Source: Tachypleus tridentatus
Taxonomy: Eukaryota > Arthropoda > Merostomata > Xiphosura > Limulidae
Direction of reading: 5' to 3'
Length of the DNA: 64,000 nt
Assembly (NCBI RefSeq): GCF_004210375.1
Contig: NC_134834.1
Coordinates: forward strand, 90,214,170 to 90,278,169
Below are positions 1-62,505 of the stretch, piece by piece; positions within the stretch are counted from its first letter, which is position 1, and each line of letters begins with the position of its first letter. Below the pieces are notes generated by a model. That model was not told the DNA's origin. It worked only from the letters and a program-made list of their open reading frames with translations, and searched no databases. The position numbers and the translations under genes were made by a program.

Positions 1-1394
1 TTTGCCCAGCGGTAAACTGTCTAAAGCAGCGATAACTTCCGGAACCGTGAATGGAGCATCACAAATATTAGCTTGTTCACTGGAAAGAGTTCGATCAACA
101 AATGAGAGAACTAAATCTATGTCTGCCTGCAGAACGATATCCTTAGAGTACAGTGCGGAATAATACTGATGTAAAACAGCAGCGATATCTTCCACACCGG
201 ACACCTCCACACCCCTATCAGTGAGCATGCATCGAAACTCAATTCTGCTTTGACGGACCTTTTCCATACGAAGAAAGTAAGACGTAGATCTCTCACCCTC
301 CTCAAACCAACGAATATGAGATCGAATCCTCGCCCCTCTATGGTATCGTGATCCAAAGTCTCCAATGCATCTTCAAGTTCATACAATTTGACCTTAGACC
401 TACCAGGGAAACGGGACAGTTTTCGAAGCTCACGATTGATGGACGACTCAAGCTGACATTTGCGAGAACGGGATGCCCGCGCACGAAGAATCGAATAACG
501 CTCGGTAAGTAAACGGAACGCGCATTTCAATTGTTCATACCACTTAATTTTATCAGTCCCATAGACTGACCAACTACGACTTCTGGCGATCAACAGCTTA
601 ATGGCTTTCACATATTCGGCATCCCTCAATAACTGGTTATTGAAGTGCCAGAAATTAGGACCTCTGACAATTGGTCGCAGAGTAAGGTCGAAGCCCAATA
701 AAGCGTGATCTGTAGCAGGAAACCACAACGTACGGAAACGTTGGACAGTCCCCTGCAAGGTAGAAGAAAGCAAAACCCTGTCAATACGAGACGACATCAT
801 CTCACCATTAACAAAACGCTTCCATGTGAAACCAGGTGTAGTCGGCGATATGAGTGAATGCGCATCAAGCAAATCAAACCTATTAAGAAACTGGACAAAA
901 GCCGAACGGCTGGCGTCACGGTAGAAACGGACCGGAAATCGATCGCGTGCCACATCCACCACACAATTAAAATCTCCCACAACAAGCAATCCCGTGCAAC
1001 CATCCAAACAATACTCCAAGTTTTGGAAAAATTCCCGTCGCTCGGAGATATCGCGAGGAGCGTACACAGATGATAACAGATAAGACAAAGACTCGAAACT
1101 GAATTTGACTGTCAGAACCCTACCCACCCCATCAGAAGAAACGAATGTAACATTATCACACAAAAACTGCTGTACCAAGATGGCAACCCCTTGTCGGCCA
1201 GAAGGAGAATTATTAAAAAAAGCTATACCTGGCCAAAATTTCAGAACGACATCATGAAAATCATCAGTAAAAAACGTTTCCTGTAAACAAACAACATCAA
1301 AATTAGTAACAAAGTAATCCAGATAATAAGCCAGCTTACTAACATTACGCAACCCATTACAATTCAAAACTCCCACCCTTAGTAAATGTACCAT
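1..1394 (-). pseudogene. LINE ORF2, N-terminal part (endonuclease), copy 1
   Basis: ORF2 encodes the endonuclease/reverse transcriptase that nicks the 5S target and primes cDNA synthesis there. The ATG at 1394 (MVHLLRVGVLNCNG) is preferred to the upstream GTG of the longer open frame, because subfamily B also has an ATG at this point (MLHSLRVGVLN). APE-type endonuclease motifs are all present: N at GVLNCNG (residues 8-14), E in LQET (37-40), D and N in GDFN (140-143), SRID (202-205) and TDH (228-230). The frame is lost near 340, where a C run reads CCCC instead of the CCCCC that keeps copy 4 open. The remainder to position 1 corresponds to the linker before the RT domain (IRWFEEGERSTSYF region) and early RT. 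The element continues outside the window. Confidence 0.9.
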
Positions 1395-1558
1395 GCTAAA
1401 GAGAAAGTAAAGGTACAAGAATTGAAAGGAAACTGTCACAAACACAAAAATAACAAGAATAAATGTAAAGATCTAAGCAAATATGCACAAAGTTCAAATA
1501 ACAATAAATGACAGTCTTACACGAACTGAAACAAACAAACTGTCACAAAAAAACACAT

Positions 1559-2656
1559 TTAAGGCTGCGACACCGCCTTCGCCTTCGCCCGAGATATCCG
1601 TAGTATTGGCACGTCCGACACCCGTTTTCGTCCACTGCCCTTCTTAGAAGTGTCACCAGGAGACATTGCCACCACACTAGCATACCTCCAACGACGAGGA
1701 AGAGGCACCTCCACATCGCCGGCGGTACTCACACCACTAACCGGAAGTGGCGGGAAGTGACGATCAAAATTGCGACTTGCAGCAGGGGGGTGACTACTTG
1801 CCCGTTCCCTGGCCCCACCAGAAACCGTCGATCGTCGGGCAGAAACATCGTCCACCACCCGATGGGTAGCTGCAGCCTTCTTTGAAAGGGGAACCTCCGA
1901 ATCAACGCGTGGACAAACAGAAATGGTGTCAACATCATGAGGCACTGCACGAGAGGGAGCAGCCGTGTCTACTTCAGCGGCGTCACGAGAAGTAGTAGGC
2001 GTGGCCACTTCAGCGTCGTCACTAGAGGAAGTTCGAGGAACAACAAGCTTGGGACAACGTTGACGGACGTGTCCCTGCATATGACAATGTCGGCATATAA
2101 ACTGGGGGCAATCGCGATATAGATGATCCGCCCCCAAACATAAATTACATACTTTTGACTGGCGATCATGCTTCACTTTTACCATTACCGCCTTGCCCAA
2201 AGGATCAAAAACTTTTACTACGTACGGCAAAGAGATACACTTCTCACTAAAACACACACGAACATGGCGTATACCTAAGTATATGCCCTGGTCCCTCTTC
2301 CACACAATAGGGCTTTTCACTTCACAATCATAATCTTTAAGTTTATTTAGTATAATATCATCGTCGATATATTCGGGTACGTCCATAAATGACACAGTAA
2401 TAGTACGTTTAGTGACACCATTAGCCGAACAGTGCACACCATTTACAGTTAGACCAGCATCTATAGCCAGGTCCACATCGTCGGGAAGAACAAAAGTTAC
2501 CTCATATCCACCCGGGCGAGGAACTACAGCAGTGACCGAAGCAGCACCAAACGTAGAAATAACAGAATGGATAACGTCCCCATGGCTTGAAGTTGTCGTT
2601 TCCACAAAAACTGTACGACGCATAACTTCCATGACCTTCTTGGTTGATGAAGACAT
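1559..2656 (-). CDS. LINE ORF1 protein, RNA-binding, two CCHC knuckles (copy 1, open)
   Basis: An open frame of 365 codons from the ATG at 2656 (MSSSTKKVMEVMRRTVFVE); the frame extends a little upstream only through a TTG. Residues about 14-165 form a hydrophobic/beta-rich region that could be an RRM-like fold (inferred from pattern only). Two perfect CX2CX4HX4C zinc knuckles follow: C170-C173-H178-C183 and C188-C191-H196-C201. Then come an Asp/Ala/Thr-rich linker with two copies of a 12-residue repeat, a Ser/Arg/Pro-rich stretch and a basic C terminus (KKGSGRKR). In L1/Tx1 elements ORF1 binds the element RNA and forms the ribonucleoprotein used for retrotransposition. It lies upstream of ORF2 on the same predicted transcript. 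It is one of only three fully open ORF1 copies here. Confidence 0.9.
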   Translation of the reverse strand: MSSSTKKVMEVMRRTVFVETTTSSHGDVIHSVISTFGAASVTAVVPRPGGYEVTFVLPDDVDLAIDAGLTVNGVHCSANGVTKRTITVSFMDVPEYIDDDIILNKLKDYDCEVKSPIVWKRDQGIYLGIRHVRVCFSEKCISLPYVVKVFDPLGKAVMVKVKHDRQSKVCNLCLGADHLYRDCPQFICRHCHMQGHVRQRCPKLVVPRTSSSDDAEVATPTTSRDAAEVDTAAPSRAVPHDVDTISVCPRVDSEVPLSKKAAATHRVVDDVSARRSTVSGGARERASSHPPAASRNFDRHFPPLPVSGVSTAGDVEVPLPRRWRYASVVAMSPGDTSKKGSGRKRVSDVPILRISRAKAKAVSQP

Positions 2657-2777
2657 CGTCAAACAACTTGGAAAAATAAAAAATCTAGAAAAAAAAAAGA
2701 ACTACACGCTCACTAGGCTTAGCTGTTAAATTTACACTAAGGCAATGAGGAGCTCGAAAAACACGTCTGTACTCGTT

Positions 2778-2816
2778 GACGAGAACCGGCGCTTTCAACG
2801 TGGTATGAACGATGAC
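2778..2816 (-). pseudogene. 5S rRNA gene, 5' fragment (positions 1-39), split by copy 1
   Basis: The first 39 nt of the 5S gene, from GTCATCGTTCATACC to GCCGGTTCTCGTC, identical to the intact genes of the array. The LINE starts at the next base on the gene strand. Positions 2778-2790 are one copy of the 13-bp target-site duplication. The matching 3' fragment lies left of the window. The fragment contains the start of transcription but none of the internal control region. Confidence 0.95.
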
Positions 2817-4943
2817 AGTTTAATTCTTTTCTTATTTGGTGTTTTAAGTGTTACTCTAAAAGAAAATCGTTGTCGCAGCCCAAAATTTCCTAGCTGTGAA
2901 ATATAAGAGATGCTTTAGGAATTCACTTTTACTGGAGGTCGCTGGAAAGTGGAGCCTGATAACTCTGGTTTGCGTTACACATCCCCGGAACAACACGAGT
3001 GTCATTACGGGGGTATGGAAACTGTCGCTCACAGGCGTGTGTGTCATTGACATGGAACACTTAAATTGATCAATTTAGCCTCTGAGAACTTTTCTCAAAC
3101 GTCTTTTAGTCACATGTTGGTGTTTATGTCTTCTTTATATTTCTTTCGGACCTACTTTCGCAAAATCTGGTATTTTACTCTCGTTACACAGGCTCACATC
3201 CCATCACTTACAGATGTGTGTGCAGAATTTAGATTTTAACACGAGCTTGCATCGGGATTAGAATTATTTAATATTCACCTTCTTTTATTCGTCATTTGGC
3301 TATACACATTAATTTACCTGTGTTTATTAACGTGTATTTTGGTTTCCATCGGGAGAAGTCGTGTGTACTCGCCTTCGTCTCCCCCTACGACAAAATAGTA
3401 TTAAACGCTGGTTACCGTCTAGTGGGAGTGCCTCAGAAGTCGCTCTTTTGTCTCTCGCTAAAGAAGTGTATGGATATTAATGAAAGTACGTTGCAAAACT
3501 GGGAATAATTCTCTGACGTTATAGAAACAGAATGAATAAAGGAACAGCACCTGTCACACTCGGCTACTACCGTTCGCGAGTCGGAAGCGTGCCACGTATC
3601 GAGTTCCTACTTATCTGAAACGTTTCCTTCGCGTTTTTCTTTCACTGCTAAGTTTTCAATTTTGCTTTTACTGTTTTGTAACTTTTTTTTTCTTGTTGTT
3701 TCTACTCACCTATTTTGTTTTATACCCAATAGCAAAGACTCTTGTCGTTATTGGAAAGTTAATTTTCAAATGTACGTACATATAAAATAGATATTTGATT
3801 TATAAATAAGGTGTGCAATCGTCGGTGTCTCCGAGTAAAGTCTCTCTCTGCTGGGTTATATTTCTAGACAAAGTAATTTTACAAAACGTAGCGAACGAAC
3901 GTTATGTAAGGAAACTCGAAATATTTGTCGCATCGCCTTTTCTGTGTAGCAGACAGATCCCTCGACAATTGCTTTTCTTAGGCAAAACGTGCACGAGCGA
4001 GACAATTTTGTGAAATAGGGAAACGTTTTAAATTCCATCTGTATAAGACTGCCTTAGATTGATGTGGGCTGGATCTACTCATTAACGAAGTTTATGTTTT
4101 GTAGATTTCGCACCCTTTGTACCCTTTGTGCATTCCGAAGATCGACCCGCGAAGATAGTTTATTTCTTTTCTCTTCAATATACGTCTGATTGGAGGGGTT
4201 TGGTTTAAAGTGAAATGGAACGCGGCTCACGCCACCTGCTTAGAGAGCTGCTACTTTTCTTCAACGATATTTCTAGACAAAGTAATTTTACAAAACGTAG
4301 CGAACGAACGTTATGTAAGGAAACTCGAAATATTTGTCGCATCGCCTTTTCTGTGTAGCAGACAGAGCCCTCGACAATTGCTTTTCTTAGGCAAAACGTG
4401 CACGAGCGAGACAATTTTGTGAAATAGGGAAACGTTTTAAATTCCATCTGTATAAGACTGCCTTAGATTGATGTGGGCTGGATCTACTCATTAACGAAGT
4501 TTCTGTTTTGTAGATTTCGCACCCTTTGTGCATTCCGAAGATCGACCCGCTAAGATAGTTTATTTCTTTTCTCTCCAATGTACGTCTGATTGGAGGGGTT
4601 TGGTTTAAATTGAAATGGAACGCGGCTAACGCCACCTGCTTAGAGAGCTGCTACTTTTCTTGAACGATCGCAGGAAATGAATGTTTGAATTTCGTTTTCG
4701 AAGCGTGTTTTATCAACTGACTTGTTGATGGAAAAGTTGATTAGTTCCTATAACAAAAATGTTTTCCCAACAGTTTACCATAATAAATACCCAGTATTAA
4801 GGCACTTCAATTGAGTCAACCACTTTCTTTCTCTCTTTCGGGAAGGATTTTTTATCTCTTAAATCAGAAATTGTGAAAAAAGTGAGACGTATCGATCAGC
4901 TCTTTGCGAGACCTACAAATTTCAACGTGAAAAAAAAAAAAAA
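2817..4943 (-). repeat. 5S intergenic spacer, alpha type, 2127 bp
   Basis: Non-coding spacer between the 5' end of one 5S gene and the poly-T terminator of the next. It is recognised by near-identity to eleven others in the window. Alpha-type markers are CATTACGGGG near 3015, and an internal duplication of about 400 bp (3858-4666). It ends in a 14-base A run at 4930-4943, which is the T-run terminator of the 5S gene on the minus strand. No tRNA, snRNA or spliced-leader gene is recognisable. Short open frames on both strands are not conserved between spacers. Confidence 0.9.
3858..4666. repeat. Tandem duplication inside spacer (2 x ~400 bp)
   Basis: Two direct copies, 3858-4266 and 4267-4666, each opening with ATATTTCTAGACAAAG and closing with CTACTTTTCTTCAACG or CTACTTTTCTTGAACG. 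The first copy carries an extra 10 bp where ACCCTTTGT is repeated around 4110-4130. The same segment is single in all spacers from 20638 onward. Confidence 0.92.
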
Positions 4944-5035
4944 GTCATCATCACCCGGTATTCCCAGGTGGTCACCCTCCCAAGTACTAACCGGGCCCGC
5001 CGTTGCTTAGCTTCGGTGATCGGACGAGAACCGGC
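4944..5035 (-). pseudogene. 5S rRNA gene, 3' fragment (positions 27-118), split by copy 2
   Basis: The 92-nt 3' portion of the 5S gene, separated from its first 39 nt (10678-10716) by LINE copy 2. It begins with the second copy of the duplicated target GCCGGTTCTCGTC (5023-5035) and keeps the whole internal control region (box A GAAGCTAAGCAACGG, intermediate element, box C) and the T-run terminator. It is unmutated relative to intact 5S genes, implying recent insertion or ongoing homogenisation. Confidence 0.95.
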
Positions 5036-5055
5036 TTTTTTTTTTTTTTTTTCTC

Positions 5056-5082
5056 TTTATTTATCCCACCTCAACGAGGGGG
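5056..5082 (-). promoter_or_regulatory. LINE 3' end: polyadenylation signal and hairpin
   Basis: On the minus strand the hairpin CCCCCTCGTTGAGGTGGG (5065-5082; 7-bp stem with one bulged T and a GTT loop) is followed by GATAAATAAAGAGA, containing AATAAA, and then the poly(A) tail. The same hairpin is unchanged in every copy whose 3' end is seen: 14963-14980, 26336-26353, 33752-33769, 40245-40262, 49456-49473 and 56983-57000. In several LINE groups a 3' stem-loop is recognised by the reverse transcriptase; that role here is inference. Confidence 0.6.
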
Positions 5083-5309
5083 TATACACAGAAATACAAC
5101 AAATAAAACACAAGTTAATGAATTAGCATGTAACAATAACTCTATAGATTACCATGCTGAAAATTACCACAAAGTTAATAAAATTAAGGAAAAAGAAATA
5201 AAAGAGGTAATTGGAACAGCAGGTAATCCAACAAACATTATAATGAACATTAACAAACAAGAAATCAATGGATCTTTCATTGGTAACAAAAATATAATGA
5301 AATAACAAC

Positions 5310-8300
5310 TTATCTTAACAACGTACACAAGAAATAACCTTGGGCACCTTGGGTTACCAAGCTACCAACATAAGAATACACAGAATAAAAAACATTTAAT
5401 GAGTTATGTAACAAAGATCTATGATAATGAAGATATATATGTCTACGTACACGCACTTTAAACATGGAAATTACGTGAATTTCGCGATGACTGGCCAAAT
5501 AAACTGAACGAGCAGAACATATAACCTGACGTGCCAAACTAGTAATCAAACGGAATATGTTCCAGCATCTCCCGGGTAACGAAGGGTGAGGTCCCACTAA
5601 GAGGCATCTCCTCCATACCCAGTTAGATATGGGACATCCAAAATAAAACGCCAATAATTTATATACATATGACCACAAAGGCTGCACAAAAGGACATAGG
5701 AAAAACAGATGGTCTATGGTTTCCCGCGCCTGTGAACAGAAAGTGCACAACCCTGTGGGATGTCTGTCCATATGTACTAGCTTGACATTAGTGGTTATCG
5801 CCCGCAACCAAAGTAAATAATCCACATCACAAACATGAAAACCCACAAAAGAAGAATAAGCGTTTTTCGAATGAGTTTCCAATCTCCAGGAGGAACAATA
5901 TCCCCCCAGTAGAATGGAGCAGGTAAATTAGTAGCTAGTGAACACTGTATATGACCCACCAGTTGCTTCACAGATAAACCTTGAAAATGAACCCGGTTAT
6001 CAGAGTGGTCCAGAAAATATAAATCTACAACAAGTGTGGTCGATGGGAGAGGAGCCGGCTGGTTGGACAAAACCGTCAACCAGTCCACAGGCAACGCCTC
6101 CTTCAGCATATTAAAATGTGAAACAATTGTGCGGACATTGACCAACGGATCAGCGTCCGTACACATTTCAATCACCGCCCTCACCGGAAGAAAACCTGGG
6201 AGCACCTCGTACAACAAATGTCGGACCTGAACCAAACCTGCGTTGATAAATTCAGGAAAATTAAATGTTCGGTTCCGAACATCCACAATAGCCGGATTGA
6301 AAAACAAAGGTTCATCAAAAACTTGTGGGGAAAGAGGAGCTGCGACAATCCCTCTTTCCCCAAGAAGAACCTTCCAGGCATGAAACATTTCCTGAATATA
6401 CAAAGGTAACGATTTCACAAAACGTGGCAAAATTCGGCATTGAAGAATCCGAAAGCCCAAAGCGAGATTGCCATAACAAGAAAAAAATCCAGAAAGAAGT
6501 TGTCGCAGGGTGGAAGGACAAGAAGCATCCAAACAACGCTGCAACAATCTCAAACGGAATGCAAGTTTACGGGCATTAATATCAACCAAGTTGATACCTC
6601 CACAATCATAACTCCGGATCAGAATACCGTATGCCACTTTATGTATACCTCCCCGCCAAATAAAATCAAGTATACATTTGCGAAATCGAGCCTCAAACTG
6701 TGTTGGCAACGGCAGAATTTGCAACGTGTACCACAACACAGATGCTACCAAGGAATTCACCACAAGAGATTTACCCTTTAGTGACAATGAACGAAAACGC
6801 CACGACACCAAGATACGAGATACCCTGCGCAAAACATCCTGCCACGTATCCTGCAGCATTACATCGAAATGGGAGTGGAAAACTATACCTAAAATCCTAA
6901 TAGGATCCTGGGAAATTCTCAACTCATCCAGGACAAAGTCTGCAGAAGAGGCCAAACACCCAACCCACAAACCCTGACTCTTGGCCCAGTTGATCCTTCC
7001 CCCAGTAGCTCTGCCAAAAGTTTGGCATACATCCAACACATGAGGCAAAGATTTGGCGTCCCGTAAGGTCAAAGTGGTATCATCAGCATGCTGATAAATA
7101 AGGGACGGCGTGTTGAGGAACACATCACCCCAATACCAGTAATATGAACATTATGAACTAACATATTTCGTAACGGTTCGACACTGAGAACGTAAAGTAA
7201 AGCAGACATTGGGCATCCTTGACGAATACCCCGAGTTACAGCAAAATCATTTGTGAGAAATCCATTAAACTTAACACAACTAGAAATAGAAGTATAGCAA
7301 AGACGAACCCAATGAACAAAAGTAGAACCAAAACCCATACGCACAAGAAGTTGAAATAGATACTCATAGGCCACCCGATCAAAGGCTTGCATCTGATCGA
7401 GCTTCAAAAAGATTCCACCCTGGCCGGTACGTGCTAAAGATTGCAATAGCAAAACGAGTGTTAACGGAGTATCAGCAACGTCCCGTCCAGGTATACACCC
7501 GGATTGGTCATCTGAAACTAAACTGGAGATCACAGACGAAAGGCGACGAGCCAGCACTTTGGCCAGAAGCTTATAGTCAGAACATAGCAATGTCAAAGGC
7601 CGGCTGTTAGCCGCCAACCGTCGATCCCCGCCTTTCGGGATAGGAACAATTACCCCCGAACACATTGAACTGAGCAACTGTGGAGAGAGGAAAAGGTCAG
7701 ACAGGACAGACACAAAGTCGTCAACAAAATGAGGGAGGAAACATTTGTAAAATTCGGACGTAAAACCATCCAAACCAGGAGATTTGCCAATTGGTAAACT
7801 GTCTAGAGCAGCGAGAATTTCCGAAATCGTGAATGGAGCATCACAAATATCAGCTTGTTCATGGGTGAGAGTTTTATCAACAAAGGTGAGAACGAAATCG
7901 ATGTCGTCCTGCAGAACAATATCTTCAGTATATAGTGCTGAATAATATTGATGCAGAACAGCAGCGACATCATCCGCATCGGACACTTCTTCACCCCCAT
8001 CAGTGAGCATGGATCGAAACTCAATTCTGCTCTGTCGGACTCTTTCCATACGAAGAAAGTAAGAGGTAGACCTCTCACCCTCCTCAAACCAACGAATATG
8101 AGAACGAATCCTCGCCCCCTCTATCGTATGGTGATCCAAAGTCTCCAATTCATCTTCGAGTTCATATAATTTTACCTTAGACCTACCAGGGTAACGGGAC
8201 AGCTTTCGAAGCTCACGTGTAATGGACGACTCAAGCTGACATTTGCGAGAACGGGATGCCCGCGCTCGAAGAAGCGAATATCGCTGGGTAAGTGAACGGA

Positions 8301-9179
8301 ACGCGGATTTCAATGTTTCATACCACGAAATTTTATTAGTCCCATATACTGTCCAACTTCGACTTCTGGCGATTAACAGCTTAATGGCTTTCACATATTC
8401 GGCATCCATCAACAACTGGTTATTGAAGTGCCAGAAATTAGGACCTCTGACAACGGGCCGCAGTGTAAGCTCGAAGCCCAATAAAGCATGATCTGTAGCA
8501 GGAAACCACAACGTACGTAAGCGTTTGACAGTCCCCTGTAAGGTAGATGATAGCAAAACCTTATCAATACGAGACGACAACATCTCACCATTAACAAAGC
8601 TCTTCCACGTGAAACCAGGGGTAGTCGGCGATAAGAGAGAATGCGCATCAAGTAAATCAAACTTACTGAGGAACTGAACAAAAGCCGAACGACTAGCATC
8701 ACGGGAGAAACGAACAGGAAATCGATCGCGTGACACATCCACCACACAATTAAAATCCCCCCACAACGAGTAATCCCGTGCAATCATCTAAGTTATAGGT
8801 TAAGGTGTGGAAAAAATCCCGTCTCTCATAAATATCGCGAGGGGCATATACTGATGATAGCAGGAAAGACGAAGTCTCGAAAGTTAATTTTACAGTCAAA
8901 ACCCTACCCACCCCATCAGAAGAAACGAATGTAACATTATCCCTCAAAAACCGCTGTAACAAGATGGCAACCCCTTGTCGTCCAGTAAGAGAATTATTAA
9001 AAAAAGCTAAACCTGGCCAATATTTCAGTACAACATCTTGAAAATCATCAGTAAAAAACGTTTCCTGTAAACAAACAACATCAAAATTAGTAACAAAGTA
9101 ATCCAGATAATAAGCCAGCTTACTAACATTACGCAACCCATTACAATTCAAAACCCCCCACCCTGAGTGAATGTAACAT
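5310..9179 (-). pseudogene. LINE ORF2 endonuclease/reverse transcriptase, copy 2 (broken)
   Basis: About 1290 codons from the ATG at 9179 to the TAA at 5310-5312, in four open blocks: 8750-9179, 7069-8787, 5795-7123 and 5310-5882. Endonuclease motifs (LQET, GDFN, SRID, TDH) sit at residues 8-230. The RT core covers about 460-700: KSPGLDGF, LKLDQMQAFD (motif A), TRGIRQGCPMS (motif B) and YQHADDTTL (motif C, residues about 695-703). A C-terminal CX2CX8HX4C (CTFCSQARETIDHLFFLC) lies near residue 1145. Frame breaks fall at the C run 9154-9159 (six C), near 8755-8762 (an extra C in CCCCCC), near 7120 (CACCCC) and near 5885-5910 (CCCCCC). Copy 2 holds the longest single block (572 codons) spanning endonuclease to RT motif B. 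Confidence 0.92.
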
Positions 9180-9314
9180 GCAAAAGACGACAAACAGGAA
9201 CGAGAATTAAAATTAAACTGTATCTTACACAAAAGTTACAAGAACAATCGTAAAGAATTGAGCAAATATGTACAAAGTACAGTTAACAATAAAACACATT
9301 CTTACACTAAAATG

Positions 9315-9370
9315 AAACAAACAAACAAACAAACAAACAAAAAAAAAAAAAAAAAAAAACACAACAACAA
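9315..9370. repeat. (CAAA)n / A-rich tract between ORF1 and ORF2, copy 2
   Basis: CAAA repeats grading into a long A run on the plus strand (GTTT/T-rich on the element strand), just downstream of the ORF1 stop. It is present in subfamily B copies only; the equivalent A gap lacks it. Length and composition differ in each B copy. Confidence 0.85.
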
Positions 9371-9374
9371 TCAT

Positions 9375-10530
9375 TTATGTTTGAGACACCGCCTTCGCCT
9401 TTGCACGAGGTTTCCTAAGTATCGGGACGTCCGACACCCGTTTCCGTCTACTGATCTTTGAGGTGTTACCTGGATTCATCGCCACCACACTAGCATACTT
9501 CCAACGACGTTGAAGAGGCACCTCCACATCGCCGGCGGTACGTTCACCACTAACCGTAAGTGGTGGGAAGTGTCGATCAAAATTACGTCGTCCAGCAGGG
9601 GGAAGACTACTAGCCCGTTCCCTGGCCCCACCAGAAACCGTCGGTCGCCTGGAAGATACATCCACCCAAGGGGTAGCTGTAGTCTCCCTTGAAATGGAAA
9701 CCTCCGAATCAGCGCGTTGATGAACAGATAGTCTTTCAGCGTCTTCAGGCACTGCACGAGAAGGAACAACCGTGGCCACGTCAACCTCGTCACGATAAGG
9801 AGTGGGCGTGGCCACGTCAGCGTCGTCACGATAAGGTAGGGCGTGGCCACGTCACGTCGTCAAGGAAGTGGGCGTGGCCACGTCATCGTCGTCACAAGAA
9901 GAAGGCCGAGGAACAACAAGCTTGGGACAACGTTGCCGAACATGTCCTTGCACATGACAATGTCGGCAAATAAATTGGGGACAATCGCGATATAAATGAT
10001 CCGCCCCCAAACATAAATTACACACTTTTGACTGGCGATCATGCTTCACCTTTAACATAACCGCCTTCCCCAAAGGATCAAAAAACTTTCACAACGTACG
10101 GCAAAGAGATACACTTTTCACTAAAAGACACACGAACATGGCGTATACCTAAATATATGCCTTGGTCTCTCTTCCACACTATAGGGCTCCTTACTTCACA
10201 AGAAAAATCCTTAAGTTTATTTAAAAGAACATCATCGGCTATATATTCTGGTACTTCCATAAAAGAAACAGTAATAGTGCGTTTAGTTACACCATTAGCC
10301 AAACAGTGTACGCCATTTACAACAAGACCAGCATCGACAGCTAGGTCTACGTCAGCAGGGAGAACAAAAGTTACCTCATAACCTCCCGGGCGAGGAACAA
10401 CAGCAGTAACCGAAGCAGCACCAAACGTATTCATAACAGCATGGATCACGTCCCCATGGTTTGAATTGGAAGTTTCCACAAACACCGTGCGATGCATTAC
10501 TTCCATACTTGTTTGAGAAGCTGAACACAT
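9375..10530 (-). pseudogene. LINE ORF1, copy 2 (broken)
   Basis: The ORF1 region runs from the ATG at 10530 (MCSASQTSMEVMHR) to the TAA at 9375-9377 and is read in three blocks: 10078-10530, 9852-10073 and 9375-9815. Both CCHC knuckles are intact in the middle block (CNLCLGADHLYRDC and CRHCHVQGHVRQRC). One break is an extra A near 10081-10087 (AAAAAA instead of five). The other lies within the repeat linker around 9815-9875, where repeat units are shortened. Otherwise it closely matches the open copy 3. Confidence 0.88.
9772..9907 (-). repeat. 36-bp minisatellite coding the ORF1 linker, copy 2
   Basis: About four units of a 36-bp repeat (GTGGCCACGTCAGCGTCGTC on the plus strand plus 16 bp), encoding the 12-residue unit DDADVATPTPSR. 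Two units here have lost bases, which breaks the ORF1 frame. Open copies 3 and 7 carry five units and subfamily A carries two. Confidence 0.85.
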
Positions 10531-10590
10531 ATTCAACAAATAACAAAAGCACAAAAACTAGAAACAAAAATTAACTGTACGCTCACTAGG

Positions 10591-10640
10591 CTTAGCTACT
10601 AAACTCACACTAAGGCTTAGCTACGAAACTCACACTAAGG
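10591..10640 (-). repeat. 25-bp tandem duplication in LINE 5' UTR, copy 2
   Basis: Two adjacent copies (10591-10615 and 10616-10640) of CTTAGCTAC plus AAACTCACACTAAGG, differing at one base. Copy 7 has the same duplication (55014-55063); copy 3 has a single unit. It is a useful lineage marker. Confidence 0.9.
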
Positions 10641-10677
10641 CTATCAGGAGCGAGAAAAAAACACGTCTGCACTCGAG

Positions 10678-10716
10678 GACGAGAACCGGCGCTTTCAACG
10701 TGGTATGAACGATGAC
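10678..10716 (-). pseudogene. 5S rRNA gene, 5' fragment (1-39), split by copy 2
   Basis: The first 39 nt of the 5S gene whose remainder is at 4944-5035. Its sequence is unchanged. The last 13 nt on the gene strand (10678-10690) are the 5' copy of the target duplication. Confidence 0.95.
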
Positions 10717-19272: not shown

Positions 19273-19276
19273 TCAT

Positions 19277-49425: not shown

Positions 49426-49700
49426 TTTTTTTTTTTTTTTTTTCTCTTTATTTATCCCACCTCAACGAGGGGGTATACACAGAAATACAACAAATAAAAC
49501 ACAAGTTAATGAATTAGCATGTAACAATAACTCTATAGATTACCATGCTGAAAATTACCACAAAGTTAATAAAATTAAGGAAAAAGAAATAAAAGAGGTA
49601 ATTGGAACAGCAGGTAATCCAACAAACATTATAATGAACATTAACAAACAAGAAATCAATGGATCTTTCATTGGTAACAAAAATATAATGAAATAACAAC

Positions 49701-52700: not shown

Positions 52701-53560
52701 TTTCATACCACGAAATTTTATTAGTCCCATATACTGTCCAACTTCGACTTCTGGCGATTAACAGCTTAATGGCTTTCACATATTCGGCATCCATCAACAA
52801 CTGGTTATTGAAGTGCCAGAAATTAGGACCTCTGACAACGGGCCGCAGTGTAAGCTCGAAGCCCAATAAAGCATGATCTGTAGCAGGAAACCACAACGTA
52901 CGTAAGCGTTTGACAGTCCCCTGTAAGGTAGATGATAGCAAAACCTTATCAATACGAGACGACAACATCTCACCATTAACAAAGCTCTTCCACGTGAAAC
53001 CAGGGGTAGTCGGCGATAAGAGAGAATGCGCATCAAGTAAATCAAACTTACTGAGGAACTGAACAAAAGCCGAACGACTAGCATCACGGGAGAAACGAAC
53101 AGGAAATCGATCGCGTGACACATCCACCACACAATTAAAATCCCCCACAACGAGTAATCCCGTGCAATCATCTAAGTTATAGGTTAAGGTGTGGAAAAAA
53201 TCCCGTCTCTCATAAATATCGCGAGGAGCATATACTGATGATAGCAGGAAAGACGAAGTCTCGAAAGTTAATTTTACAGTCAAAACCCTACCCACCCCAT
53301 CAGAAGAAACGAATGTAACATTATCCCTCAAAAACCGCTGTAACAAGATGGCAACCCCTTGTCGTCCAGTAAGAGAATTATTAAAAAAAGCTAAACCTGG
53401 CCAATATTTCAGTACAACATCTTGAAAATCATCAGTAAAAACGTTTCCTGTAAACAAACAACATCAAAATTAGTAACAAAGTAATCCAGATAATAAGCCA
53501 GCTTACTAACATTACGCAACCCATTACAATTCAAACCCCCACCCTGAGTGAATGTAACAT
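49701..53560 (-). pseudogene. LINE ORF2 endonuclease/reverse transcriptase, copy 7 (broken)
   Basis: ATG at 53560, TAA at 49701-49703. Blocks: 52189-53457 (endonuclease and linker), 52037-52372, 51456-52049, 50938-51510, 50105-50977 and 49701-50162. The N terminus is broken at TCAAACCCCC (53531-53540) and again at the A run near 53438-53443. Other breaks: CACCCCATC (52378-52384), GAGAGAAAAAGG and ACCCCGAAC around 52040-52080, CACCCCAATACC (near 51512), ACTCCGATC (near 51001) and TGTACAGC (near 50166). All catalytic motifs are kept. Confidence 0.9.
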
Positions 53561-53693
53561 GCAAAAGACGACAAACAGGAACGAGAATTAAAATTAAACT
53601 GTATCTTACACAAAAGTTACAAGAACAATCGTAAAGAATTGAGCAAATATGTACAAAGTACAGTTAACAATAAAACACATTCTTACACTAAAA

Positions 53694-53756
53694 TGAAACA
53701 AACAAACAAACAAACAAAAAAAAAAAACAAAAAAAAAAACAAAAAACAACAACAAT
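53694..53756. repeat. (CAAA)n / A-rich tract, copy 7
   Basis: CAAA repeats followed by A runs punctuated by C, in the gap between ORF1 stop and ORF2 start. Confidence 0.82.
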
Positions 53757-53759
53757 CAT

Positions 53760-54952
53760 TTATGTTTGAGACACCGCCTTCGCCTTTGCACGAGGTTTCC
53801 TAAGTATCGGGACGTCCGACACCCGTTTCCGTCTACTGATCTTTGAGGTGTTACCTGGATTCATCGCCACCACACTAGCATACTTCCAACGACGTTGAAG
53901 AGGCACCTCCACATCGCCGGCGGTACGTTCACCACTAACCGTAAGTGGTGGGAAGTGTCGATCAAAATTACGTCGTCCAGCAGGGGGAAGACTACTAGCC
54001 CGTTCCCTGGCCCCACCAGAAACCGTCGGTCGCCTGGAAGATACATCCACCCAAGGGGTAGCTGTAGTCTCCTTTGAAATGGAAACCTCCGAATCAGCGC
54101 GTTGATGAACAGATAGTCTTTCAGCGTCTTCAGGCACTGCACGAGAAGGAACAACCGTGGCCACGTCAACCTCGTCACGATAAGGAGTGGGCGTGGCCAC
54201 GTCAGCGTCGTCACGAGAAGGAGTGGGCGTGGCCACGTCAGCGTCGTCACGAGAAGGAGTGGGCGTGGCCACGTCAGCGTCGTCACGAGAAGTGGGCGCG
54301 GCCACATCATCGTCGTCACAAGAAGAAGGCCGAGGAACAACAAGCTTGGGACAACGTTGCCGAACATGTCCTTGCACATGACAATGTCGGCAAATAAATT
54401 GGGGACAATCGCGATATAAATGATCCGCCCCCAAACATAAATTACACACTTTTGACTGGCGATCATGCTTCACCTTTAACATAACCGCCTTCCCCAAAGG
54501 ATCAAAAACTTTCACAACGTACGGCAAAGAGATACACTTTTCACTAAAAGACACACGAACATGGCGTATACCTAAATATATGCCTTGGTCTCTCTTCCAC
54601 ACTATAGGGCTCCTTACTTCACAAGAAAAATCCTTAAGTTTATTTAAAAGAACATCATCGGCTATATATTCTGGTACTTCCATAAAAGAAACAGTAATAG
54701 TGCGTTTAGTTACACCATTAGCCAAACAGTGTACGCCATTTACAACAAGACCAGCATCGACAGCTAGGTCTACGTCAGCAGGGAGAACAAAAGTTACCTC
54801 ATAACCTCCCGGGCGAGGAACAACAGCAGTAACCGAAGCAGCACCAAACGTATTCATAACAGCATGGATCACGTCCCCATGGTTTGAATTGAAGTTTCCA
54901 CAAACACCGTGCGATGCATTACTTCCATACTTGTTTGAGAAGCTGAACACAT
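53760..54952 (-). pseudogene. LINE ORF1, subfamily B, copy 7 (one N-terminal frame break)
   Basis: From the ATG at 54952 the frame is lost after about 20 codons at GAATTGAAGTTTCC (near 54886-54893; copy 3 has GGAAG). Downstream it is open without interruption to the TAA at 53760, through both CCHC knuckles and five linker units, the fourth being one codon shorter than in copy 3. An open frame extends upstream to 55031 but includes 5' UTR sequence in an unrelated frame, so I do not take it as the natural N terminus. Confidence 0.88.
54157..54333 (-). repeat. 36-bp minisatellite (5 units) in ORF1, copy 7
   Basis: Units start at 54157, 54193, 54229, 54265 and 54298; the fourth is 33 bp, so the frame is kept. 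Three middle units are nearly identical, which points to recent expansion. Confidence 0.9.
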
Positions 54953-55013
54953 ATTCAACAAATAACAAAAGCACAAAACTAGAAACAAAAAAAAGAACTG
55001 TACGCTCACTAGG

Positions 55014-55063
55014 CTTAGCTACTAAACTCACACTAAGGCTTAGCTACGAAACTCACACTAAGG
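55014..55063 (-). repeat. 25-bp tandem duplication in LINE 5' UTR, copy 7
   Basis: Units 55014-55038 and 55039-55063, with the same single-base difference between units as in copy 2. Confidence 0.9.
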
Positions 55064-55101
55064 CTATCAGGAGCGAGAAAAAAAACACGTCTGCACTCGA
55101 G

Positions 55102-55140
55102 GACGAGAACCGGCGCTTTCAACGTGGTATGAACGATGAC
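55102..55140 (-). pseudogene. 5S rRNA gene, 5' fragment (1-39), split by copy 7
   Basis: First 39 nt of the gene continued at 49334-49425; unmutated. Confidence 0.95.
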
Positions 55141-56864
55141 AGTTTAATTCTCTTTCTTATTTGGTGTTTTAAGTGTTACTCTAAAAGAAAATCGTTGTCG
55201 CAGCCCAAAATTTCCTAGTTGTGAAATATAAGAGATGCTTTAGGAATTCACTTTTACTGGAGGACGCTGGAAAGTGGAGCCTGATAACTCTGGTTTGCGT
55301 TACACATCCCCGGAACTACACGAGTGTCATTTCGGGGGTATGGAAACTGTCGCTCACAGGCGTGTGTGTCATTGACATGGAACACTTAAATTGATCAATT
55401 TAGCCTCTGAGAACTTTTCTCAAACGTCTTTTAGTCACATGTTGGTGTTTATGTCTTCTTTATATTTCTTTCGGACCTACTTTCGCAAAATCTGGTATTT
55501 TACTCTCGTTACACAGGCCCACATCCCATCACTTACAGATGTGTGTGCAGAATTTAGATTTTAACACGAGCTTGCATCGGGATTAGAATTATTTAATATT
55601 CACCTTCTTTTATTCGTCATTTGGCTATACACATTAATTTACCTGTGTTTATTAACGTGTATTTTGGTTTCCATCGGGAGAAGTCGTGTGTACTCGCCTC
55701 CTTCTCCCCTACAACAAAATAGTATTAAACGCTGGTTACCGTCTAGTGGGAGTGCCTCAGAAGTCGCTCTTTTGTCTCTCGCTAAAGAAGTGTATGGATA
55801 TTAATGAAAGTACGTTGCAAAACTGGGAATAATTCTCTGACGTTATAGAAACAGAATGAATAAAGGAACAGCACCTGTCACACTCGGCTACTACCGTTCG
55901 CGAGTCGGAAGCGTGCCACGTACCGAGTTCCTACTTATCTGAAGACGTTTCCTTCGCGTTTTGCTTTCACTGCTATGTTTTCAATTTTGCTTTTACTGTT
56001 TTGTAACTTTTTTTTTCTTGTTGTTTCTACTCACCTATTTTGTTTTATACTCCAATAGCAAAGACTCTTGTCGTTATTGGAAAGTTAATTTTCAAATGTA
56101 CATACATATAAAATAGATATTTGATTTATAAATAAGGTGTGCAATCGTCGGTGTCTCCGAGTGAAGTCTCTCTCTGCTGGGTTATATTTCTAGACAAAGT
56201 AATTTTACAAAACGTAGCGAACGAACGTTATGTAAGGAAACTCGAAATATTTGTCGCATCGCCTTTTCTGTGTAGCAGACAGATCCCTCGACAATTGCTT
56301 TTCTTAGGCAAAACGTGCACGAGCGAGACAATTTTGTGAAATAGGGAAACGTTTCAAATTCCATCTGTATAAGACTGCCTTAGATTGATGTGGGCTGGAT
56401 CTACTCATTAACGAAGTTTCTGTTTTGTAGATTTCGCACCCTTTGTGCATTCCGAAGATCGACCCGCGAAGATAGTTTATTTCTTTTCTCTCAATATACG
56501 TCTGATTGGAGGGGTTTGGTTTAAAGTGAAATGGAACGCGGCTCACGCCACCTGCTTAGAGAGCTGCTACTTTTCTTGAACGATCGCAGGAAATGAATGT
56601 TTGAACTTCGTTTTCGAAGCGTGTTTTATCAACTGACTTGTTGATGGGAAAAGTTGATTAGTTCCTATAACAAAAATGTTTTCCCAACAGTTTACCATTA
56701 TAAACACCTAATATTAAGGCACTTCAATTGAGCCAACCACTTTCTTTCTCTCTTTCGGGAAGGATTTTTTATCTCTTAAATCAGAAATTGTGAAAAAATT
56801 TGAGAGGTATCGATCAGCTCTTTGCGAGACCTACAAATCTCAACGTGAAAAAAAAAAAAAAAAA
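55141..56864 (-). repeat. 5S intergenic spacer, gamma type, 1724 bp
   Basis: Gamma-type but without the 9-bp deletion (GTCATTGACATGGAACAC is whole near 55369). It has CAAATCTCAACGTG (near 56835) where other units have AATTTCAACGTG. No gene is recognised. Confidence 0.9.
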
Positions 56865-56956
56865 GTCATCATCACCCGGTATTCCCAGGTGGTCACCCTC
56901 CCAAGTACTAACCGGGCCCGCCGTTGCTTAGCTTCGGTGATCGGACGAGAACCGGC
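56865..56956 (-). pseudogene. 5S rRNA gene, 3' fragment (27-118), split by copy 8
   Basis: 92-nt 3' part with control region intact; partner at 62467-62505; target duplication at 56944-56956. Confidence 0.95.
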
Positions 56957-57227
56957 TTTTTTTTTTTTTTCTCTTTATTTATCCCACCTCAACGAGGGGG
57001 TATACACAGAAATACAACAAATAAAACACAAGTTAATGAATTAGCATGTAACAATAACTCTATAGATTACCATGCTGAAAATTACCACAAAGTTAATAAA
57101 ATTAAGGAAAAAGAAATAAAAGAGGTAATTGGAACAGCAGGTAATCCAACAAACATTATAATGAACATTAACAAACAAGAAATCAATGGATCTTTCATTG
57201 GTAACAAAAATATAATGAAATAACAAC

Positions 57228-60200
57228 TTATCTTAACAACGTACACAAGAAATAACCTTGGGCACCTTGGGTTACCAAGCTACCAACATAAGAATACACA
57301 GAATAAAAAACATTTAATGAGTTATGTAACAAAGATCTATGATAATGAAGATATATATGTCTCCGTACACGCACTTTAAACATGGAAATTAAATGAATGA
57401 CGCGATTTCGTGCCAAAGAAACTGAACGAGCAGAACATATAACCTGACGTGCCAAACTTGTAATTAAACGGAATATGTTCCAGCATCTCCTGGGTAACGA
57501 AGGATGAGATCCCACTAAGAGGCATCTCCTCCATACCCAGTTTGATATGGGACATCCAAAATAAAATGCCAATAATTTATATACATATGACCACAAGGGC
57601 TGTACAAAAGGACATTGGAAAAACAGATGGTCTATGGTTTCTGGCGCCTGGGAACAGAAAGTGCACAACCCTGTGGGATGTCTGTCCATATGTATCAGCT
57701 TGACATTTGTGGTAATCGCCCGCAACCAGAGTAAATAATCCACATCACAAACAAAAAAACCAACAAAAGAAGAATAAGCGTTTTTACGAATGCGTTTCCA
57801 GTCTCCAGGAGGAACAATATCCCCCCAGTAGAATGGAGCAGGGAAGTTATTAGCGAGTGAAAACTGTATATATCCCACCAGTTGCCGCAGAGATAAACCT
57901 TGAAAATGAACTCGATTATCGGAGTGGTCCAGAAAATATAAATCCACAACACATGTGGACGACGGAAGAGGAGCCGGCTGGGTAGACAAAATCGGCAACC
58001 ACTCCACAGGCAACGCCTCCTTGAGCATATGAAAATGTGAAAAAATTGTGCGGGCATTGGCCAACGGGTCAGCGTCCGTACACATTTCAATCACTGCCCC
58101 ACCGGAAGAAAAGCAGGGAGCACCTCGTACATTAAATGACGGACCTGAACCAAACCTGCGTTAATAAATTCAGGAAAATGAAATGTTCGGTGGCGAACAT
58201 CAACAATAGCCGGATTGAAAAACAAAGGTTCATCAAAAATTTGGGGGGAAAGAGGAGCTGGGACAATCCCTTTATCCCCAAGAAGAACCTTCCAGGCATG
58301 AAACATTTCCTGAATATAGAAAGGTAACGATTTCACAAAACGTGGCAAAATACGGCATTGAAGAATCCGAAAGCTTAAAGAGAGATTACCATAACAAGAA
58401 AAAATCCAGAAAGAAGTTGTCGCAAGGTGGAAGGACAAGAAGCATCCAAACAACGCTGCAACAACTTCAAACGGAATGCGAGTTTACGAGTGTTAACATC
58501 AACCAAGTTGATACCTCCACAATCATAACTCCGAATCAGAATACCGTATGCCACTTTATGTATACCTCCCCGCCAAATAAAATCCAGTATACATTTGCGA
58601 AATCTAGCCTCAAACTGTCTTGGCAACGGGAGTATATTCAACGGGTACCATAACACCGATGCCACCAAGGAGTTCACCACAAGAGATTTACCCTTTAGCG
58701 ACAAAGAACGAAATCGCCACGACACCAAGACACGAGATACCCTGCGCAATACACCCTGCCACGTATCTTGCAGCATGACATCGAAATTAGAGTGGAAAAC
58801 TATTCCCAAAATCCGAATAGGATCCTGGGAAATTCTCAACTCACCAAGGACGAAGTCTGCAGAAGAGGCCAAACACCCAACCCACAAACCCTGACTCTTG
58901 GTCCAGTTGATCTTCCCACCAGTAGCTTTGCCAAAAGTTTGGCAGACATCCAACACATGCGGCAAAGATTCGGCGTCTCGTAAGGTTAAGGTGGTATCAT
59001 CAGCATGCTGATAAGTAAGTGAAGGCGTGGTGAGTAGCACATCACCACCAATACCAGTAATATGTACATTATGGACTAACATATTTCGTAACGGTTCGAC
59101 ACTGAGAACGTAAAGTAGAGCAGACATGGGGCATCCTTGACGAATACCCCGAGTAATAGCAAAATCATTAGTGAGAAATCCATTAAACTTTACACAACTA
59201 GAAATAGAAGTATAGCAAAGACGAACCCAATGAACAAAAGTAGAACCAAAACCCATACGCAGAAGAAGTTGAAATAGATAGTCATAGGCCACCCGATCAA
59301 AAGCTTGCATCTGATCGAGCTTCAAAAAGATTCCACCCTGGCCGGTACGTGCTAAAGATTGCAATAGCAAAACGAGTGTTAATGGAGTATCAGCAACGTC
59401 CCGTCCAGGTATACACCCGGATTGGTCATCTGAAACTAAACTGGAGATCACAGACGAAAGGCGACGAGCCAGCACTTTGGCCAAAAGCTTATAGTCAGTA
59501 CAAAGCAATGTCAAAGGCCGGCTGTTAGCCGCCAACCGTCGATCCCCTTTCGGGATAGGAACAATTACCCCAGAACACATTGTACGGAGCAACTGTGGAG
59601 AGTGAAACAGTTGAGACAAGACAGATAAAAGTCGTCAACAAAAGAGGTAGAAAATATTTGAAAAATTCGGAGGTAAAACCATCCAAACCAGGAGATTTGC
59701 CCAGCGGTAAACTGTCTAAAGCAGCGATAACTTCCGGAACCGTGAATGGAGCATCACAAATATTAGCTTGTTCACTGGAAAGAGTTCGATCAACAAATGA
59801 GAGAACTAAATCTATGTCTGCCTGCAGAACGATATCCTTAGAGTACAGTGCGGAATAATACTGATGTAAAACAGCAGCGATATCTTCCACACCGGACACC
59901 TCCACACCCCTATCAGTGAGCATGGATCTAAACTCAATTCTGCTTTGACGGACCTTTTCCATACGAAGAAAGTAAGATGTAGATCTCTCACCCTCCTCAA
60001 ACCAACGAATATGAGATCGAATCCTCGCCCCTCTATGGTATCGTGATCCAAAGTCTCCAATGCATCTTCAAGTTCATACAATTTGACCTTAGATCTACCA
60101 GGGAAACGGGTCAGTTTTCGAAGCTCACGATTGATGGACGACTCAAGCTGACATTTGCGAGAACGGGATGCCCGCGCACGAAGAATCGAATAACGCTCGG

Positions 60201-61089
60201 TAAGTATACGGAACGCGCATTTCAATTGTTCATACCATTTAATTTTATCAGTCCCATAAACTGACCAACTACGACTTCTGGCGATCAACAGCTTAATGGC
60301 TTTCACATATTCGGCATCCCTCAATAACTGGTTATTGAAGTGCCAGAAATTAGGACCTCTGACAATTGGTCGCAGAGTAAGGTCGAAGCCCAATAAAGCG
60401 TGATCTGTAGCAGGAAACCACAACGTACGGAAACGTTGGACAGTCCCCTGCAAGGTAGAAGAAAGCAAAACCCTGTCAATACGTGACGACATCATCTCAC
60501 CATTAACAAAACGCTTCCATGTGAAACCAGGTGTAGTCGGCGATATGAGTGAATGCGCATCAAGCAAATCAAACCTATTAAGAAACTGGACAAAAGCCGA
60601 ACGGCTGGCGTCTCGGTAGAAACGGACCGGAAATCGATCGCGTGCCACATCCACCACACAATTAAAATCTCCCACAACAAGCAATCCTGTGCAACCATCC
60701 AAACAATACTCCAAGTTTTGGAAAAATTCCCGTCGCTCGGAGATATCGCGAGGAGCGTACACAGATGATAACAGATAAGACAAAGACTCGAAACTGAATT
60801 TGACTGTCAGAACCCTACCCACCCCATCAGAAGAAACGAATGTAACATTATCACACAAAAACTGCTGTACCAAGATGGCAACCCCTTGTCGGCCAGAAGT
60901 AGAATTATTAAAAAAAGCTACACCTGGCCAAAATTTCAGAACGACATCAGGAAAATCATCAGTAAAAAACGTTTCCTGTAAACAAACAACATCAAAATTA
61001 GTAACAAAGTAATCCAGATAATAAGACAGCTTACTAATATTACGCAACCCATTACAATTCAAAACTCCCACCCTTAGTAAATGTACCAT
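57228..61089 (-). pseudogene. LINE ORF2 endonuclease/reverse transcriptase, copy 8 (four breaks)
   Basis: ATG at 61089, TAA at 57228-57230. Blocks: 59812-61089 (endonuclease), 59525-59962, 58375-59619, 58091-58453 and 57228-58094. Residue landmarks: GVLNCNG 8-14, LQET 37-40, GDFN 140-143, SRID 202-205, TDH 228-230; then RT motifs to YQHADDTTL and the C-terminal CTFCSQAPETIDHLFFQC. Breaks: the four-C run near 60027-60031, the stretch near 59620-59632 (AAAAGTCGTC; copy 6 has AAAAAAGTCGTC), the A run near 58398-58404 and the four-C run near 58096-58100. All four are at homopolymers. Confidence 0.92.
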
Positions 61090-61250
61090 GCTAAAGAGAA
61101 AGTAAAGGTACAAGAATTGAAAGGAAACTGTCACAAACACAAAAATAACAAGAATAAATGTAAAGATCTAAGCAAATATGCACAAAGTTCAAATAACAAT
61201 AAATGACAGTCTTACACGAACTGAAACAAACAAACTGTCACAAAAAACAT

Positions 61251-62345
61251 TTAAGGCTGCGACACCGCCTTCGCCTTCGCCCGAGATATCCGTAGTATTG
61301 GCACGTCCGACACCCGTTTTCGTCCACTGCCCTTCTTAGAAGTGTCACCAGGAGACATTGCCACCACACTAGCATACCTCCAACGACGAGGAAGAGGCAC
61401 CTCCACATCGCCGGCGGTACTCACACCACTAACCGGAAGTGGCGGGAAGTGACGATCAAAATTGCGACTTGCAGCAGGGGGGTGACTACTTGCCCGTTCC
61501 CTGGCCCCACCAGAAACCGTCGATCGTCGGGCAGAAACATCGTCCACCACCCGATGGGTAGCTGCAGCCTTCTTTGAAAGGGGAACCTCCGAATCAACGC
61601 GTGGACAAACAGAAATGGTGTCAACATCATGAGGCACTGCACGAGAGGGAGCAGCCGTGTCTACTTCAGCGGCGTCACGAGAAGTAGTAGGCGTGGCCAC
61701 TTCAGCGTCGTCACTAGAGGAAGTTCGAGGAACAACAAGCTTGGGACAACGTTGACGGACGTGTCCCTGCATATGACAATGTCGGCATATAAATTGGGGC
61801 AATCGCGATATAGATGATCCGCCCCAAACATAAATTACATACTTTTGACTGGCGATCATGCTTCACTTTTACCAATACCGCCTTGCCCAAAGGATCAAAA
61901 CTTTTACTACGTACGGCAAAGAGATACACTTCTCACTAAAACACACACGAACATGGCGTATACCTAAGTATATGCCCTGGTCCCTCTTCCACACAATAGG
62001 GCTTTTCACCTCACAATCATAATCTTTAAGTTTATTTAGAATAATATCATCGTCGATATATTCGGGTACGTCCATAAATGACACAGTAATAGTACGTTTA
62101 GTGACACCATTAGCCGAACAGTGCACACCATTTACAGTTAGACCAGCATCTATAGCCAGGTCCACATCGTCGGGAAGAACAAAAGTTACCTCATATCCAC
62201 CCGGGCGAGGAACTACGGCAGTGACCGAAGCAGCACCAAACGTAGAAATAACAGAATGGATAACGTCCCCATGGCTTGAAGTTGTCGTTTCCACAAAAAC
62301 TGTACGACGCATAACTTCCATGACCTTCTTGGTTGATGAAGACAT
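61251..62345 (-). pseudogene. LINE ORF1, subfamily A, copy 8 (broken near first knuckle)
   Basis: ATG at 62345. Open through residue ~150 (61869-62345), then disturbed by shortened A, C and G runs at about 61897-61901 (CAAAACTTTT), 61822-61826 (GCCCCAAAC) and 61795-61800 (TTGGGGC), which scramble the first CCHC knuckle. The second knuckle (CRHCHMQGHVRQRC), the two-unit linker and the basic C terminus are open to the stop at 61251. Three losses in about 100 bp, each in a homopolymer, sum to a whole codon. Confidence 0.88.
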
Positions 62346-62466
62346 CGTCAAACAACTTGGAAAAATAAAAATCTAGCAAAAAAAAAAAGAACTACACGCT
62401 CACTAGGCTTAGCTGTTAAATTTACACTAAGGCAATGAGGAGCTCGAAAACACGTCTGTACTCGTT

Positions 62467-62505
62467 GACGAGAACCGGCGCTTTCAACGTGGTATGAACG
62501 ATGAC
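62467..62505 (-). pseudogene. 5S rRNA gene, 5' fragment (1-39), split by copy 8
   Basis: First 39 nt of the gene continued at 56865-56956; unmutated. Confidence 0.95.

Follow-up and report, generated by a model that had tools for sequence, protein, structure and literature searches.

How did a mobile element come to split two thirds of the genes of a 5S ribosomal RNA (rRNA) array, and did it choose its site in each gene or spread only as the array itself was copied? This question is raised by the window analysed here, a stretch of 64,000 nucleotides (nt) of Tachypleus tridentatus contig NC_134834.1, the whole of which is a minus-strand tandem 5S rRNA array. The array has 12 units, four of them intact and eight split by the insert of a long interspersed nuclear element (LINE); this is the count as assembled, and the number of units across a gap in the fifth insert is uncertain. 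The inserts are numbered E1 to E8. The element is, with high confidence, a LINE of two open reading frames (ORFs) with an apurinic/apyrimidinic (AP)-type endonuclease and an L1-type reverse transcriptase (RT), which targets a single site within 5S rRNA genes. We read it in this way because all eight inserts have site and orientation in common, all seven complete junction pairs show the same 13-bp duplication and the A tails abut 5S position 27, and also because a 5'-truncated copy (E5) lies at the same site, the expected protein domains are present, and both the substitution ratios and the divergence of elements relative to their flanks agree with it.

Insertion site in the 5S rRNA genes

The 5S genes of the 12 units start at positions 2816, 10716, 12715 (intact), 20637, 22534 (intact), 24432 (intact), 31859, 38409, 45758, 47620 (intact), 55140 and 62505. 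Rfam reported four complete genes and seven three-prime partial genes, all on the minus strand. The four intact genes are 119 nt each and letter-for-letter identical, and a BLAST search with this gene recovered eight five-prime and seven three-prime fragments, all at 100% identity. The five-prime fragments comprise 5S positions 1-39, or 1-40 in four cases in which the insert begins with C, and the three-prime fragments comprise positions 27-119. Both junctions are visible in seven of the eight inserts, E1 being cut by the window start. The insert follows directly after 5S position 39 at every five-prime junction (8/8), its poly(A) abuts position 27 at every three-prime junction (7/7), and positions 27-39, GCCGGTTCTCGTC (13 bp), are found on both sides of the insert in all seven complete pairs. 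In E2, E3, E5 and E7 the first inserted base, C, equals 5S position 40, so that either 13 or 14 bp would fit for these four; the length of the duplication is fixed at 13 bp because inserts of one subfamily (A, see below) begin with AA. All eight inserts have the orientation of the 5S gene, and neither the 11 spacers nor the flank beyond 62505 contained any piece of the element at an expect value (E) of at most 1e-3. A chance origin of one site common to all eight inserts to the nucleotide does not seem plausible.

A sequence-only reading of this DNA had described a LINE that fills eight of 12 5S units with nucleotide-exact targeting, enters after position 39 with a 13-bp duplication of 27-39 and always follows the orientation of the gene, with seven full junction pairs and one half pair. 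Rfam, BLAST and the reading of the junctions confirmed this description, the half pair being that of E1, and the check that it had proposed, that every insertion should fall at 39/40 of the 5S gene, came out positive for all eight in the window.

The spacers measure 1.7-2.1 kb and form three groups by array position, with 0-1.25% divergence within groups and 1.1-3.6% between them, which is a sign of local homogenisation. Within one spacer there is a tandem duplication of 401 bp (13754-14557; two copies, 99% alike). In eight of 11 units the sequence CACGTTGAAA, which equals 5S positions 15-24, stands behind the T run, just downstream of the 5S terminator (for example at 12574-12583); it may be there by chance or as a remnant.

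Proteins of the element and its affiliation

The six full-length copies measure 5,501-5,676 bp, have two ORFs and end in A tails of 14-21. ORF1 is unbroken in E1, E3 and E6 (365, 399 and 365 amino acids) and encodes in each of them two CX2CX4HX4C (CCHC) knuckles; the match of Pfam zf-CCHC_2 in ORF1 falls below its cutoff. CCHC knuckles in ORF1 are a trait of the Tx1 clade. In ORF2 Pfam found an AP-type endonuclease (Exo_endo_phos, 9.5e-12), a reverse transcriptase (RVT_1, 2.9e-30) and zf-RVT (8.8e-10). When compared with solved structures, the RT matched human L1 ORF2p best (4e-52) and R2 at 1.9e-10, and the ten RT matches listed at E ≤ 1 were of the L1 and R2 types only. The best match of the endonuclease was 2v0r 'LTX' (62.5 bits), followed by L1 ORF2p (57.1), 'LR1' (53.9) and the L1 endonuclease 1vyb (51.0). 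The 'LTX' match exceeds plain L1 by 11.5 bits, is ungapped through the loop and does without the gap of two residues needed by L1. We take 'LTX' to be the L1 endonuclease with the Tx1 loop swapped in, and 'LR1' presumably carries the R1 loop in the same way. A query of 60 amino acids round the endonuclease loop alone gave no LINE match at E ≤ 10. The residues that we take to be catalytic are present in the printed RT and endonuclease alignments.

These matches support membership of the element in the L1/Tx1 group of LINEs, and the 'LTX' match of the endonuclease is a hint of Tx1 affinity. The earlier judgement that endonuclease, RT and ORF1 knuckles fit Tx1/L1 is borne out by an L1-type RT, an AP-type endonuclease and two CCHC knuckles. 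A peptide-pattern search for relatives, with narrow patterns, returned one stretch in viral contigs and nine in genome contigs, none of them confirmed, and a junction-pattern search had no match in either set. Structure prediction of ORF1 and of the endonuclease was unsuccessful (mean pLDDT, the predicted local distance difference test, 34.6 and 35.0).

Two subfamilies

The copies fall into subfamilies A (E1, E4, E6, E8) and B (E2, E3, E7); E5 is excluded from this count, from the substitution ratios and from the counts of lesions given below. Divergence is 0.07-1.16% within A, 0.71-1.03% within B and 10.2-14.6% between them. Over the first 2.9 kb, fixed differences between A and B number up to 26 per 100 nt (at least 10 in 22 of 29 bins, the lowest value being 1); between 2.9 and 5.1 kb there are 1-11 per 100 nt, and the last ~400 nt have none (for example 40219-40620 of E6). 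The sequence-only reading had proposed two divergent subfamilies; this stands, with a strong difference at the 5' end, except for the last ~400 nt, which show no fixed difference. To account for this we prefer an exchange of 3' ends, by recombination or template switching, over constraint, because the stretch starts inside ORF2.

The ratio of nonsynonymous to synonymous substitution rates (dN/dS) between A and B is 0.235-0.246 for the main stretch of ORF2 (three pairs), 0.188-0.205 for its last 205 codons and 0.259-0.274 for ORF1 (three pairs). Judged by these values, about 0.25, A and B diverged under purifying selection, and both lineages therefore have working proteins in their line of descent. 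ORF1 of B-type copies also contains a repeat of 36 bp (12 codons) in 3.6-4.9 units (9771-9895, 19676-19842, 37953-38123, 54156-54325), which has 2.2 units in A copies; the difference in ORF1 length between A and B is due at least in part to this repeat.

Alternative explanations

Copies at one site could also descend from one or two old insertions that unequal crossing-over of the 5S array has multiplied, with no repeated targeting. In order to separate these readings, the divergence of elements can be set against that of the spacers around them. In all nine same-subfamily pairs the element is less divergent than the flanking spacers, with p < 0.01 in eight and p = 0.077 for E1/E8; the nine pairs are non-independent, and those with E1 have the upstream flank only. 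E4 and E6, for instance, are 0.36% apart whereas their flanks differ by 2.76% and 2.36%. Because elements are more alike than flanks throughout, several copies were probably inserted separately into units that had already diverged. In addition, A copies are mixed with B copies along the array, the two kinds begin with different 5' ends, and E5 has a truncation of its own. Multiplication of units does account for some of the data: E6 and E8 look like one duplicated unit (elements 0.07% apart, upstream spacers 0.14%), E2 and E3 differ by 0.73% as against merely 0.80% in their downstream spacers, several copies have indels in common, and the grouping of spacers by position indicates that local exchange does happen. 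As a full account of the array we consider it very unlikely. The element could likewise belong with R1 or Jockey, LINEs of the type that usually targets ribosomal DNA in arthropods. R1 elements have rRNA-gene targets, an AP endonuclease and ORF1 knuckles. The 5S-associated LINEs of the beetle Tribolium freemani are termed Jockey-like, on similarity in the nucleic-acid-binding protein part, in PMC11202950. Here, however, L1-based entries are the best matches of both RT and endonuclease (4.7e-16 for the latter), and the Pfam family found is Exo_endo_phos instead of Exo_endo_phos_2, which marks R1/Jockey-type endonucleases. The names R1Bm and TRAS1 are absent from the endonuclease matches listed at E ≤ 10 although bacterial exonucleases are among them, the inclusion of both in the library being unconfirmed. 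We regard an R1 or Jockey origin as even less probable than multiplication by crossing-over.

The least probable of the alternatives is that the arrangement, or at least the unit of E5, is a construct of the assembly from collapsed repeats. In E5 a gap of 500 N separates a 5' half of type B, which lacks about 500 nt through truncation, from a 3' half of type A; five one-base indels of the A half are common with E6, and many one-base indels in the copies sit in runs of equal bases. The 5' and 3' junctions of E5 are both at the standard site; the copy could have arisen by true recombination, or scaffolding may have joined two units. In the six other complete copies, in contrast, both junctions are ungapped, as is the one junction of E1; these copies lie among different spacers, and their tails differ in length. 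For E5 alone, an artefact of assembly stands as an explanation.

Several observations weigh against a site-specific LINE as we describe it. A single window was examined, and copies outside 5S genes may exist. The low divergence of the elements is partly due to coding constraint; such constraint, or gene conversion confined to the elements, would weaken the argument against unequal crossing-over. Furthermore, ORF2 as assembled is broken by at least one frameshift in all seven copies examined (E1 being partial); the reference for this count is the majority frame, which has one shift of its own near codon 1120-1150, a point at which E8 reads through. E2 and E7 have a break in common just before the RT active site, E4, E6 and E8 have three in common around the RT core, and the five indels of E6 that recur in the A half of E5 do so although the downstream spacers of E5 and E6 differ at 32 of 1702 positions. 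If such common breaks are real and were inherited, as they may be, the copies would have been mobilised in trans or altered by conversion.

One-base indels found in a single copy within a subfamily number 41, with columns near both ends and longer indels excluded; the break of E2 and E7 is tallied among them as an insertion in E3, and the five of E6 are also included. Runs of at least three equal bases make up 21% of the sequence and contain 31 of the 41 (binomial p about 1e-13), and 30 of the 41 are deletions. This bias fits long-read consensus error, and the one break that E6 and E7, of different subfamilies, share at a T run fits recurrent error. Our first reading of the breaks, as mostly sequencing error, was dropped in view of the common breaks and of the E6 indels that recur in E5; the breaks may be error or real damage. 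No in-frame stop was found within ORF1 or ORF2 proper, three TAA codons per B copy that precede the start of ORF2 being set aside; this proves little because with 56 within-subfamily coding substitutions the probability of finding none by chance is 0.136.

A proposed model of insertion

Target-primed reverse transcription is established for R2, and by analogy it may be the process at work here. The ORF2 endonuclease would nick the antisense strand of the 5S gene between positions 26 and 27, and the 3' end so released would serve as primer for copying the element RNA into cDNA, beginning at its poly(A) tail. A cut of the sense strand between 39 and 40, 13 nt downstream, would follow, and second-strand synthesis and repair would leave 27-39 on each side of the insert. 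We infer the order of nicking, the choice of site by ORF2 alone and any current activity. Copies would multiply in two ways, through new insertions and through local unequal exchange of entire units, as in E6/E8. The site lies upstream of the internal control region, which we take to span about 50-97 of the 5S gene, and therefore the 27-119 fragment keeps the predicted internal promoter together with the T-run terminator.

Table 1. Features of the 5S array and its inserts. Positions 27-39 in each 27-119 fragment are the second copy of the duplication.
Feature	Coordinates	Strand	Details
E1, subfamily A, 5' part only (3' part beyond window)	1..2777	(-)	ORF1 1562-2656 intact, 365 aa
Endonuclease domain, start of E1 ORF2	600..1394	(-)	Pfam Exo_endo_phos 9.5e-12; 2v0r 'LTX' 4.7e-16
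5S 1-39 upstream of E1	2778..2816	(-)	
5S 27-119 downstream of E2	4943..5035	(-)	
E2, subfamily B, full length, 17-A tail	5036..10677	(-)	
5S 1-39 upstream of E2	10678..10716	(-)	
Intact 5S rRNA gene	12597..12715	(-)	Rfam, BLAST
5S 27-119 downstream of E3	14839..14931	(-)	
E3, subfamily B, full length, 21-A tail	14932..20598	(-)	ORF1 19280-20476 intact, 399 aa
5S 1-39 upstream of E3	20599..20637	(-)	
Intact 5S rRNA gene	22416..22534	(-)	Rfam, BLAST
Intact 5S rRNA gene	24314..24432	(-)	Rfam, BLAST
5S 27-119 downstream of E4	26217..26309	(-)	
E4, subfamily A, full length, 14-A tail	26310..31820	(-)	
5S 1-39 upstream of E4	31821..31859	(-)	
5S 27-119 downstream of E5	33633..33725	(-)	
E5, mosaic: 5'-truncated B half and A half across 500-N gap 35963-36462	33726..38370	(-)	
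5S 1-39 upstream of E5	38371..38409	(-)	
5S 27-119 downstream of E6	40126..40218	(-)	
E6, subfamily A, full length, 14-A tail	40219..45719	(-)	ORF1 44506-45600 intact, 365 aa, two CCHC knuckles
Reverse transcriptase stretch, E6 ORF2	41630..43321	(-)	Pfam RVT_1 2.9e-30; human L1 ORF2p 4e-52
5S 1-39 upstream of E6	45720..45758	(-)	
Intact 5S rRNA gene	47502..47620	(-)	Rfam, BLAST
5S 27-119 downstream of E7	49333..49425	(-)	
E7, subfamily B, full length, 18-A tail	49426..55101	(-)	
5S 1-39 upstream of E7	55102..55140	(-)	
5S 27-119 downstream of E8	56864..56956	(-)	
E8, subfamily A, full length, 14-A tail	56957..62466	(-)	zf-RVT 8.8e-10 in 57231-58160
5S 1-39 upstream of E8	62467..62505	(-)	

Comparison with known systems

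What is new at this locus is that elements of one subfamily diverge less than the spacers beside them, and that A and B, judged by dN/dS to have diverged under purifying selection, nevertheless have no fixed difference over the last ~400 nt. A LINE endonuclease that chooses one bond in a multicopy gene would be a natural tool for studies of target selection, and it might, like R2, allow insertion into a multicopy site that tolerates it. How heavily such an element can burden an array is also illustrated here, two thirds of the visible 5S genes being split.

Human L1 ORF2p is the best solved match of the RT and a close one of the endonuclease, and L1 has the poly(A) end in common with the element; however, L1 is not known to be site-specific and its ORF1 is without knuckles, whereas ORF1 here has two CCHC knuckles. 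The likeness to Tx1L of the frog comes through the score of 'LTX', which we take to be L1 with a Tx1 loop and not a Tx1 protein, and the target of Tx1L is a different one. R2 is likewise a site-specific parasite of rRNA genes (28S), but it presumably uses a restriction-like endonuclease in contrast to the AP-type enzyme here, and its RT scores far lower, so the element falls outside R2.

Among LINEs with the same target, Mutsu was reportedly placed in the Tx1 clade by Kojima and Fujiwara in 2004, and one paper, judged by its title, is said to treat 5S-specific LINEs of zebrafish. Insertion into the 5S gene, the trait of Mutsu, was found in all eight inserts of the window. PMC3706591 and PMC11202950 name Mutsu as a 5S-targeting LINE of zebrafish and describe it as likewise having two ORFs and about 5.5 kb within 5S rRNA genes, a likeness by description only. 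The Dada-5S elements of fish also target 5S rRNA genes but, according to PMC8869645, are DNA transposons that have no reverse transcriptase. Among the titles and abstract openings listed from the open-licence literature, none announced a 5S-specific LINE outside fish.

A parallel may exist in T. freemani, whose 5S arrays are described in PMC11202950 (2024) as regularly interrupted by ~5-kb Jockey-like LINEs. The sequence-only reading had suggested an undescribed family, but LINEs within 5S arrays are thus already published for this beetle. In that paper, 32 of 113 5S copies are without 30 bp at the start, occur exclusively in the organisation that bears LINEs and are classed by the authors as pseudogenes, not as junctions. 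On our reading, which is not the authors', T. freemani probably has the same arrangement, unrecognised, its short 5S copies being the 3' flanks of site-specific insertions; they lack 30 bp, as compared with 26 nt missing from the 27-119 fragments here. The beetle's spacers consist of satellite monomers 71 or 122 bp long (PMC11202950) and so differ from those of 1.7-2.1 kb in the present array. If so, the published '5S pseudogenes' would be LINE junctions. It is conceivable, though we hold it doubtful, that an L1/Tx1-type LINE outside fish, in a beetle or another invertebrate, evolved specificity for 39/40 of the 5S gene independently, with T. freemani as a second occurrence; we slightly lowered our estimate of this because, given the 'LTX' match, the element is somewhat likelier to be related to Tx1 and so perhaps to Mutsu. 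Should independent targeting be true, the 5S gene would be a shared and overlooked target of invertebrate LINEs.

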